In this document: piece after piece, positions 8,521-11,573 of the stretch
Position numbering within the stretch: the stretch's first letter is position 1
How the letters are laid out: the number at the start of each line of letters is the position of its first letter
NCBI GenBank assembly: GCA_030591585.1
Contig: JAUVAS010000002.1
Location: 1 to 64,000 of the forward strand
Source of the DNA: Flavobacterium sp.
GTDB lineage: Bacteria; Bacteroidota; Bacteroidia; Flavobacteriales; Flavobacteriaceae
Length of the DNA: 64,000 bases
Direction: 5' to 3'
The notes under the pieces: model-generated
Database searches by the model: none
Told to the model about the DNA's origin: nothing
Seen by the model: only the letters and a program-made list of their open reading frames with translations
Made by a program: the position numbers and the translations under genes

Positions 8521-9524
8521 AAAAACTAGTTGCTTTACTATCATTATTTTTTATACTTTCTTGTGGAAATAAAACCCCACAAAATTTTATTAATCAAGGG
8601 GAAGCTTTTGGAACCACCTATGCTATTCAGACCTATTCCTTAGAAAAATTAGAACTTGAAAAAGGAATTGATTCAGTAATCTATGTAGTAAATAAATCGG
8701 TGAGTATTTATCTTCCTAAGAGTGATATTTCAAAAATAAATAGGGGAGATGCTTCTATTGTGGTTGATAAAACATTTATTGATAATTTTAATATTTCAGC
8801 TGAAGTTCATAAAAACACCAATGGATATTTTGACCCAACTATAGGAGTTCTACGGAATGCGTACGGGTTTGGAGACGCAAAACCTCTAATAGAAATGGAT
8901 CGTCTTATTCTTGATTCATTGTTGCAATATGTAGGTTTCAATAAAGTAAAATTAACTTCCGAAAACAAAATAGAAAAGCAATATCCAGAAATTTATTTCG
9001 ATTTTAATGCGGTGGCAAAAGGATATGGAATAGACCAAATAGGAAATTATCTAGAATCTAAAGGAATCTCCAATTACCTTATCGAATTAGGAGGTGAAAT
9101 ACTGGCTAAAGGAAAAAACCTTGATAAAAATAAACCTTGGGTAGTAGGGATAGAAAATGTTGATTCTCAATTAGAAGATCGTAGTTATTCTTCCATCGTT
9201 ATGTTACAAGATGAAGCCATGGCAGCATCTGGCAATTACCGAAAGTTTAGAATAGATTCTCTAACAGGTAAAAAATACGTTCACACGTTAAACCCAATTA
9301 CAGGTTCCGCAGAAAAAAGCGATGTAACCAGTGCAACGGTAATCGCTTCGACCTGTGCTGTGGCAGATGCGTATGCAACAGCTTTTATGGCATTAGGATT
9401 AGAAAAATCTAAAGAAGTTTTAAAAACATTAAATGGAATTGAAGCTTATCTAACCTACAACGACCAAAATAATAAAGAACAAGTTTTTGTGACAGAAGGA
9501 TTTAAAACTCATTTATTAGACTAA
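8517..9524 (+). CDS. apbE: FAD:protein FMN transferase (lipoprotein)
   Basis: ApbE attaches FMN covalently to Thr residues of target proteins; in NQR-bearing bacteria the targets are NqrB and NqrC. The protein has a lipoprotein signal with lipobox LSCGN (Cys16), so it acts on the periplasmic side. Family features include GTTYAIQTYS near the start, YFDPTIGVL, the FDFNAVAKGYGID motif, IELGGEILAKG, and the HTLNPITGSAEKSDVTSATVIA segment involved in metal/FAD binding. The length of 335 is normal. It overlaps the preceding gene by 4 nt, and its stop overlaps the convergent methyltransferase by 9 nt. Context and motifs agree. Confidence 0.95.
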   Translation: MKKLVALLSLFFILSCGNKTPQNFINQGEAFGTTYAIQTYSLEKLELEKGIDSVIYVVNKSVSIYLPKSDISKINRGDASIVVDKTFIDNFNISAEVHKNTNGYFDPTIGVLRNAYGFGDAKPLIEMDRLILDSLLQYVGFNKVKLTSENKIEKQYPEIYFDFNAVAKGYGIDQIGNYLESKGISNYLIELGGEILAKGKNLDKNKPWVVGIENVDSQLEDRSYSSIVMLQDEAMAASGNYRKFRIDSLTGKKYVHTLNPITGSAEKSDVTSATVIASTCAVADAYATAFMALGLEKSKEVLKTLNGIEAYLTYNDQNNKEQVFVTEGFKTHLLD

Positions 9525-10292
9525 CTTCTTGCAAACGGGAATAATCTCCTCTTTTGCCAAACGGTATGTGTCAATCTCAATTTCTGAAAGATTTTTAGTA
9601 TAATTTACTTCCAAAACATCAAAACCAATAGATCGTAATTTATCAAAATAATCACGCCCATACACTCTCACGTGGTCGTATTGTCCAAATATTTTAGCAC
9701 GTTTTTTTTTATCGCTAATAGTATCATCTTCAAAAGTAGTAGCTCTAGATAAATCTTGTGGGATTTGAAAAATTCCTATGCCACCAGGAGCTAATACCCT
9801 ATATAATTCTTGCATTGCCTTGGTGTCATCTGGAATATGTTCAAGTACATGATTGCAAAAAATGAAATCGAATTCATTGTCTTTAAAAGGCAAATTGCAT
9901 ATATCTGCTTTCACGTCGGCTAGCGGTGAATTTAAATCGGTAGTTATATAATCAAGATTTTCCATATTCTTGAAACGTTTGTAAAAAGCTTGTTCAGGAG
10001 CAAAATGGAGTAGTTTTATTTTTTTATCATTACTAAAAAAGGTAGTTTCATTTTCAAGATACAACCAAAATAAACGATGCCTTTCTAAAGATAAAGTTCC
10101 TGGAGCTAAAACGTTTTCACGAATTTTTTCATAACCGTAAGGGAGAAATTTTCGGTACGATTTCCCATCAATAGGATCGGTATATTTAGTTCCTTTTAAA
10201 AAAAAAGCAATAAAGGGATTTAAAATATAACTTAACCTTATAAGAAAAGGTCTTGGTAAGAAATTTAGAAAAAATTTAAATATTCTTTGCAT
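9516..10292 (-). CDS. Class I SAM-dependent methyltransferase
   Basis: This 258-residue protein has a methyltransferase core around residues 85-190: LHFAPEQAFYKRF (motif I region, with the usual Gly-rich loop weakened), DYITTDLN, a KADICNLPF acidic segment, FDFIFCNHVLEHIPD and the post-core LAPGGIGIFQIP. The FCNHVLEHI pattern is typical of methyltransferases acting on small molecules or glycans. A hydrophobic, basic N-terminus (PRPFLIRLSYILNPFIAFFLKG) could associate with the membrane. The substrate is unknown. It is downstream of a GxxExxY element on the same strand. Confidence 0.8.
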   Translation of the reverse strand: MQRIFKFFLNFLPRPFLIRLSYILNPFIAFFLKGTKYTDPIDGKSYRKFLPYGYEKIRENVLAPGTLSLERHRLFWLYLENETTFFSNDKKIKLLHFAPEQAFYKRFKNMENLDYITTDLNSPLADVKADICNLPFKDNEFDFIFCNHVLEHIPDDTKAMQELYRVLAPGGIGIFQIPQDLSRATTFEDDTISDKKKRAKIFGQYDHVRVYGRDYFDKLRSIGFDVLEVNYTKNLSEIEIDTYRLAKEEIIPVCKKLV

Positions 10293-10304
10293 TATTTAGT
10301 TGTT

Positions 10305-10763
10305 ACGCTGAGAGTCACAGAGGACCTCAGAGACTCACAGAGAGTTTTTAGTTGAATTAATAAACCTTTTTATTCCATTTTTTAAAAGTTTTGTGTGAAA
10401 GTTAATCAATAACCCTAATGGATAATTACCTAGTTTTAGATATGTTAATACTTGAGCTGAATGTACCTCTGTAAATGCTTCTACAGTTTTTAATTCGATT
10501 ACGACTTGGTCTTCTACTAATAAATCTATTCTATAACCGTGATCTAATTTTATTTCTTTAAAAATAATAGGTAATGCTTTTTCCTTTTCAACTTTTAAAC
10601 CTAATTGTCTTAGTTCATAAAGCAAGCATTCTTGATAAGCAGACTCTAATAATCCTGGCCCTAAAGTTCGATGAACTTCTATAGCTGCTCCAATTATTTT
10701 TTCAGTTAATTTATTATCCATTTTCTCTGTGTATCTCTGAGATCCTCTGTGAGTCTCTGCGGA
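10305..10763 (-). mobile_element. GxxExxY element: single ORF between terminal inverted repeats
   Basis: The arms at 10307-10345 and 10725-10761 pair as imperfect inverted repeats of nearly 40 bp. The plus-strand left arm contains TCACAGAGGACCTCAGAGAC and the complement of the right arm contains TCACAGAGGATCTCAGAGAT. Both arms are built from short CTCTGTG or CTCAGAG iterations. They bracket the GxxExxY gene closely (its start lies 4 nt inside the right arm). The element sits between a methyltransferase gene and map, all on the minus strand. Confidence 0.65.
10335..10721 (-). CDS. GxxExxY family protein (PD-(D/E)xK nuclease-like)
   Basis: This 128-residue protein contains the namesake motif GLLESAY (residues about 23-29) and a PD-(D/E)xK-type core, YRIDLLVEDQVVIELKT, with the Asp and Glu-x-Lys expected of the nuclease fold. 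The family is common in Bacteroidota as scattered single genes; no function has been established to my knowledge. Here it lies inside nearly 40-bp imperfect inverted repeats, and its C-terminal codons run into the left arm. The start is the ATG immediately inside the right arm. It is co-directional with its housekeeping neighbours and unrelated to them. Confidence 0.9.
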   Translation of the reverse strand: MDNKLTEKIIGAAIEVHRTLGPGLLESAYQECLLYELRQLGLKVEKEKALPIIFKEIKLDHGYRIDLLVEDQVVIELKTVEAFTEVHSAQVLTYLKLGNYPLGLLINFHTKLLKNGIKRFINSTKNSL

Positions 10764-10769
10764 ATAACG

Positions 10770-11573
10770 CTACACTCTAAATTCGTCCTCCTCATCACTC
10801 TCAATCCCCAAAGCCTCATAAATGTAAGCAAAAGTTGAAAGTAATTCAGGTTTGCCATTCACAATAGCAACATCGTGTTCAAAATGTGCACTGGGTTTTC
10901 TATCTTTAGTAAGAATTGTCCAACCATCTTTTAGCTGTTCAATACGTTTAGTACCTAGATTAATCATTGGTTCAATAGCAACAGTCATTCCTTCCACAAA
11001 TTTCTTTCCACGACCTCTACGTCCATAATTTGGCATTTCTGGATCTTCGTGCATTGTTTTTCCTAAACCGTGACCTACCAGTTCTCTAACGACTCCATAC
11101 CCGTGTGCTTCACAGTATTGTTGAATTGCATACCCTACATCCCCAACACGTTTTCCTATTTTAAGTTCTCGGATTCCAACGTACAGAGATTCCTTGGTGA
11201 TTTTAAGTAATTTTTCAACTTCAGGGGCAATTTCTCCAACGGCAAAAGTATAGGCGTGATCTCCATAAAAATCATGCTTTATAGCGCCACAATCTATTGA
11301 TATGATATCTCCTTCTTTTAATGGAGTGTCATTAGGGATTCCATGAACTATCTGAGCATTTGGGCTCATACAAAGGGTGTTTGGGAAATCATACAATCCT
11401 AAAAAACCAGGAATCGCCCCTTGTTCTCTAATAAAATCTTCAGCTAATTTATCTAAATATAATGTTGTAACCCCAGGTTTTACTTCACTGGCAAGCATTC
11501 CTAATGTTTTTGAAACTACTAAGGCAGCTTCCCGCATTAATTCAATTTCTTCTTTAGATTTAGGTATAATCAT
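10770..11573 (-). CDS. map: Type I methionine aminopeptidase
   Basis: This enzyme removes the initiator Met from nascent proteins using two divalent metals. The 267-residue sequence has the type I pattern: HGIPNDTPLKEGDIISIDCGA with the first Asp ligand, YGDHAYTFAVG with the second, LVGHGLGKTMHEDP with the His ligand, and AIEPMINLG plus FEHDVAIV with the two Glu ligands. It is slightly longer than the minimal 250 or so residues because of an acidic C-terminal tail (ESDEEDEFRV). It follows the HAD hydrolase gene on the minus strand after 9 bp, and a GxxExxY element lies just downstream. Confidence 0.96.
   Translation of the reverse strand: MIIPKSKEEIELMREAALVVSKTLGMLASEVKPGVTTLYLDKLAEDFIREQGAIPGFLGLYDFPNTLCMSPNAQIVHGIPNDTPLKEGDIISIDCGAIKHDFYGDHAYTFAVGEIAPEVEKLLKITKESLYVGIRELKIGKRVGDVGYAIQQYCEAHGYGVVRELVGHGLGKTMHEDPEMPNYGRRGRGKKFVEGMTVAIEPMINLGTKRIEQLKDGWTILTKDRKPSAHFEHDVAIVNGKPELLSTFAYIYEALGIESDEEDEFRV

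Follow-up and report, generated by a model that had tools for sequence, protein, structure and literature searches.

A GxxExxY gene between inverted four-site arrays: a candidate repeat-dispersing element with a predicted Cas4/RecB-like nuclease

The window, a 64,000-nucleotide stretch of a Flavobacterium sp. contig (JAUVAS010000002.1), carries an ORF for a GxxExxY protein of 128 aa on its minus strand (10335..10721), with matches to the profiles TIGR04256 (157.3 bits against a cut-off of 35, E 1.8e-46) and PF13366 (150.6 bits against a cut-off of 22, E 2.9e-44). The gene belongs to an element of about 470 bp (10299..10768, minus strand) lodged between two further minus-strand genes, a junction that is empty in congeners. 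On one side map, encoding type I methionyl aminopeptidase (MAP; 10770..11573, TIGR00500), ends 1 nt from the element; on the other, a class I SAM methyltransferase gene (9516..10292, PF08241) starts 6 nt from it.

Inspection of the sequence and an inverted-repeat search delimited two arms of 45 nt each, upstream (10724..10768) and downstream (10299..10343) of the gene, 84% complementary and separated by 380 nt. Each consists of exactly four CACAGAG-like 7-mers in a 10-bp register: CTCTGTG, CTCTGAG, CTCTGTG and CTCTGCG at 10725, 10735, 10745 and 10755 in the upstream arm, and CGCTGAG, CACAGAG, CTCAGAG and CACAGAG at 10306, 10316, 10326 and 10336 in the downstream one. The outer edge reads GTTATTC upstream (GAATAAC at 10762-10768) and GTTGTTA downstream (10299-10305); the upstream edge and the four-unit layout are common to gene-less arrays. 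The gapped inverted-repeat score of the locus was 31, and none of 190 block-shuffled flank pairs reached 20. An Rfam search of the locus gave no match, and a terminator scan found none at the arms. A sequence-only reading of this DNA had described inverted arms of iterated CTCTGTG/CTCAGAG words at 10307-10345 and 10725-10761, and both the inversion and the words were borne out, with the arms slightly longer and their ends displaced by a few bases. It was also right that the 3' codons of the gene lie in one arm (the downstream arm overlaps the stop codon and the final two codons) and that the ATG is close to the other, the distance to the last 7-mer being 3 nt and not 4.

Alignments showed D66, E76 and K78 of the protein to be invariant and Q90 and Y94, which make up a Q-x3-Y motif, to be invariant or nearly so; the PD-(D/E)xK residues previously noticed in the enclosed protein (D66, E76-x-K78, Q90-x3-Y94) are indeed there. 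An AlphaFold2 model had a pLDDT of 93.6 and a pTM of 0.87, and its top Foldseek matches were 4ic1 (SSO0001), AdnAB and lambda exonuclease, with a best E of 4.8e-4 and TM-scores of only 0.42-0.49. SSO0001 is a Cas4 protein from Sulfolobus. Sequence searches of the PDB, with the single protein and with a profile, returned nothing relevant, and a Pfam scan of the window protein gave PF13366 only, with no HUH (Y1) transposase. From residues and model, an active RecB/Cas4-type PD-(D/E)xK nuclease is the straightforward prediction. Within the open-access PMC literature GxxExxY was mentioned in only two papers, in passing and with no role described; the array sequences and PDDEXK_3 were not found there, nor was any description of such an element.

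Sampling of GxxExxY loci covered relatives, 296 Bacteroidota genomes and named genomes spread over many phyla. A TIGR04256 match above the curated cut-off occurred in 149 of the 296 Bacteroidota genomes, and the family is also present outside this phylum. For 190 unique loci with both flanks, inverted arms (score at least 16) were detected in 71%, whereas the controls gave 1.6% for block-shuffled flanks and none for 65 neighbouring ORFs; some 29% of the loci had no significant arms. CRCARAG-type words recur in records titled Anaerolineales, Chloroflexota, Omnitrophota, Planctomycetota and Acidobacteria, and likewise Nitrospinota, Opitutaceae, and Alpha- and Betaproteobacteria. The sequence-only reading would have been abandoned had the flanks of GxxExxY genes been unrelated between loci and genomes; related inverted arms were found across genera and phyla. 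Among plasmid records with GxxExxY, arms surrounded the gene in two. Two genomes each held a close tandem of two GxxExxY genes 540-740 bp apart (L240, G149:C4; L241, G253:C1). At two other loci (L384 in G295, L385 in G304) stop codons interrupt the gene while at least one arm is still visible, decay of a kind expected of selfish elements.

The arms have a regular internal design. At GxxExxY loci their autocorrelation was maximal at lags of 10, 21 and 31 and their spectrum at 10.5 bp, whereas control DNA 260-320 nt upstream was flat and lacked this period. Across arrays the 7-mers follow one another in steps of 9-12 bp, and four-unit arms are symmetrically spaced (10-11-10, 9-12-9 or 9-11-9), implying two pairs 20-21 bp, or two helical turns, apart. 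Of 39 gene-less arrays in the genus, 34 have exactly four units and none has more; their linkers vary and their edge is conserved. Judged by its sequence, this layout resembles several sites for protein binding lined up along one face of the DNA double helix, and does not look like a slippage product. The terminal repeats proposed earlier proved more specific than generic ones, being a fixed four-site module whose word varies with the protein clade. Mismatches within the arms, counted over all GxxExxY loci that have them, showed no G-U excess (200 G-U against 210 A-C), which gives no support to selection acting on an RNA stem of the sense strand.

Protein clades differ in their arm words, among them CACAGAG, CGCAAAGGCGC, CATTAAGG, CGCAGATTT and CACTAATTA. 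Over all locus pairs, protein identity correlated with the 6-mer similarity of the near flanks (Mantel r 0.35, reached in 0 of 500 permutations; phylogeny enters our cross-genome statistics only through the within-family check given below), as compared with an r of 0.07 for flanks 220-330 nt away. At 138 of 144 loci, the two arms were more like each other than either was like the arms of clade neighbours. The claim that arms evolve in concert rests mainly on this last result, because in the genome G347 mirrored 7-mers of the same copy were alike no more than by chance (0.55 against 0.52), while linkers were alike (0.50 against 0.30). The correlation of word and protein fits direct recognition together with joint inheritance; inheritance alone is a possible cause. 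Words that track the protein, the 10.5-bp repeat and the lack of a G-U bias together probably point to recognition of double-stranded DNA rather than RNA.

An earlier suggestion was to look for empty sites, and these exist: 13 congeneric genomes have the map-methyltransferase junction intact and free of the element, with the MAP stop and the methyltransferase start next to each other. Comparison of the window copy with these sites revealed no clear junction product, and the C-terminal tail of MAP is shorter here than in its nearest relatives. A genome of another genus (G031) has a GxxExxY gene with CACAGAG arms of its own at the same junction (L079, G031:C15:498045-499274); that element lies directly behind the MAP stop codon, and its edges are unlike those of the window copy. 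It may have arisen by a separate insertion into a preferred site, and its position makes an insertion hotspot after stop codons possible.

Many genomes contain scattered four-site arrays and palindromic pairs that enclose no gene, and gene-less arrays also occur in the genome of the window. We counted arrays genome-wide in the 296 genomes by a search for a two-unit pattern, with the reversed pattern as control. Mean hits were 2.4 (control 2.3) in genomes lacking a GxxExxY gene and 41.5 (control 2.0) in those with at least six, and hits correlated with gene number (Spearman 0.53, against -0.15 for the control), a relationship that is partly built in, since the two arms of each gene contribute about six pattern hits. 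Inside families the correlation ranged from 0.45 to 0.78. After subtraction of six hits per gene, 31 of the 296 genomes retained at least eight, and six of these had no detected GxxExxY gene. Many arrays with no detected gene of the present clade were likewise seen in the congeners G009, G011 and G015, which are incomplete MAGs, as are many of the sampled genomes; array-bearing genomes of this sort may merely miss the relevant contig. One gene-less four-site array in the window's genus (L024, G000:C98:22563-22606) is placed in frame within an ORF, near its N-terminus, in a stretch resembling a signal peptide; G009 and G015 also have arrays at this place, and several other congeners have none there.

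In G347, a three-unit pattern gave 97 matches and its control none. The copies read out are palindromes, mostly of 101 bp, in which a 29-bp central palindrome (TCCTCCTACGC..GCGTAGGAGGA) has four units on either side. Among 16 sequence-distinct full copies recovered, several belong to a single local tandem cluster; the 11 that lie elsewhere have unrelated flanks (mean identity 28% over 40 nt) and showed no target-site duplication, flank identity at k 2-10 equalling that of permuted pairs. The palindrome of about 101 bp also stands on both sides of a GxxExxY gene (G347:C2:117619-117969); the remaining GxxExxY genes of this genome have other words. The surrounding region (L449, G347:C2:117050-119200) places a GxxExxY gene amid tandem units of about 194 bp, each with one such palindrome.

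A second gene family occurs in a comparable setting. At 562-879 on the plus strand, the window holds a gene for a four-helix-bundle protein of the TIGR02436 (23S IVS/S23p) family, flanked by inverted arms at 483-494 and 915-926 (TCAGTACGCAGT). Free-standing TIGR02436 loci had inverted arms in 71% of 31 cases, with a period of 7 nt instead of 10.5. One gene junction appears to be occupied differently in two genomes (L322 in G009, L112 in G014), by CACAGAG arrays paired back to back in one of them and by a TIGR02436 element in the other, so different kinds of element may use the same sites.

Among known systems, REP/REPIN sequences with their RAYT (tnpA-REP) enzymes offer a close parallel, having one gene between inverted copies of a short repeat, further gene-less copies of this repeat scattered singly or as palindromic doublets, and no target duplication seen. 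A gene flanked by a repeat that is dispersed in the same genome, as in RAYT systems, was found in G347. However, the RAYT enzyme is an HUH tyrosine transposase and not a Cas4/RecB-like PD-(D/E)xK protein, and a REP is an imperfect palindrome tagged with GTAG or CGTC, whereas we observed a four-site array of 7-mers. That tag at the base of the repeat is a criterion taken from PMC3733652; by eye, the arrays contain no GTAG or CGTC tag, their edges being TATT/AACC and their units CACAGAG. The enzyme and the untagged repeats therefore place the element outside RAYT.

The intervening sequence (IVS) of 23S rRNA encoding S23p (four-helix bundle, TIGR02436), as in Coxiella burnetii, is similar in having a single small ORF and inverted terminal repeats and in being called selfish, and it is reported to have heptameric repeats upstream of the ORF (PMC4990558). 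The GxxExxY element differs in fold, in its 10.5-bp period, in its protein-gene neighbours and in giving no sign of RNA selection; the window element is not in a 23S rRNA gene and has no TIGR02436 match. Cas4/RecB-type nucleases, solo Cas4 among them (PMC5704561), share the fold and the D, E-x-K and Q-x3-Y residues, and 4ic1 was the best PDB match; the GxxExxY protein, however, has only 128 aa, and the passages searched in that paper yielded no description of dispersed arrays for solo Cas4. MITEs and insertion sequences resemble the present case in having short non-autonomous copies with the ends of the gene-bearing element; here there is no DDE transposase, no target-site duplication (G347 copies), and there are internal four-site arrays. 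The element thus works like a repeat-dispersal element yet fits no described family that we found in open-access PMC.

We consider it probable that the window copy is one of a widespread set of very small selfish repeat elements, with a Cas4/RecB-like nuclease gene, inverted four-site arrays at the ends and spreading assisted by the nuclease. The idea of a minimal mobile element accordingly stands as anatomy and as comparative genomics (related arms, empty sites, dispersed gene-less arrays). Its operation might be as follows. The GxxExxY protein would be likely to bind the four-site array, probably in the form of two dimers; the bound nuclease would make or process a break, either at the end of the element or in an extruded hairpin, and host repair or replication would then copy the element elsewhere with no target duplication. 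Single arrays and back-to-back palindromic pairs would spread as non-autonomous copies, much as REP/REPIN do with RAYT transposases. Binding of the arrays by the nuclease is probable; that it cuts them we infer, and that it drives the spread is the explanation we put first. By analogy, the best reading would be a REP/RAYT-like dispersal system with an unrelated PD-(D/E)xK enzyme.

Other explanations deserve weighing. Another enzyme, e.g., a RAYT/IS200-type transposase or a phage recombinase, might mobilise the element in trans, with GxxExxY as a passenger or with a maintenance function that needs the same arrays. Genomes rich in arrays with no detected GxxExxY gene (G163, G193, G228 and others) agree with this, as does the unrelated TIGR02436 family in its own inverted periodic arms with other words, which means that arms of this sort can also enclose a single gene that encodes no nuclease. 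However, a shared external enzyme does not predict arm words that follow the GxxExxY protein sequence, and periods of 7 and 10.5 indicate that the two families have no common arm design; we regard mobilisation in trans as rather unlikely, though the most serious rival. The arrays might instead be regulatory or chromosome-organising binding sites, for GxxExxY or some other protein, that become more numerous through ordinary duplication and form no part of a mobile element, their helical phasing and free linkers resembling operator or iteron sites. This seems improbable given the G347 palindromes in unrelated flanks, the otherwise intact junction that lacks the window copy in 13 congeners and the C98 array in frame within the N-terminus of a gene.

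An RNA-level element, whose arms would pair in the transcript and undergo RNase III cleavage in the manner of 23S rRNA intervening sequences, would suit a lone ORF between inverted arms in a co-directional gene cluster, like the Coxiella IVS (PMC4990558), but we deem it very improbable: the missing G-U bias counts against the RNA-duplex reading of the arms, the period is 10.5 whereas A-form RNA has 11 or more, solo arrays have no partner to pair with, and Rfam gave no match. The short repeated words are what simple tandem-repeat slippage leaves, but an origin of the arms by slippage or chance has almost no credibility beside a unit number fixed at four with freely variable linkers, and the cross-genome comparison (arms in 71% of homologous loci against about 1-2% of shuffled flanks) already contradicts it.

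Returning to nuclease-assisted spreading, we propose, tentatively and at somewhat less than even confidence, that bacteria have an undescribed class of repeat-dispersing elements in which GxxExxY proteins serve as the dedicated enzymes; these elements would employ a Cas4-like nuclease and a helically phased four-site array, with a word specificity that diversifies with the protein across phyla. If this is true, the GxxExxY (TIGR04256) family would gain a substrate and a function, and a set of intergenic repeats in many phyla would be explained. The family would also supply compact nucleases with target words evident from the flanks of their genes, and with them ready material for working out how DNA is recognised, and REP-like repeat dispersal would have arisen with a second, unrelated enzyme.
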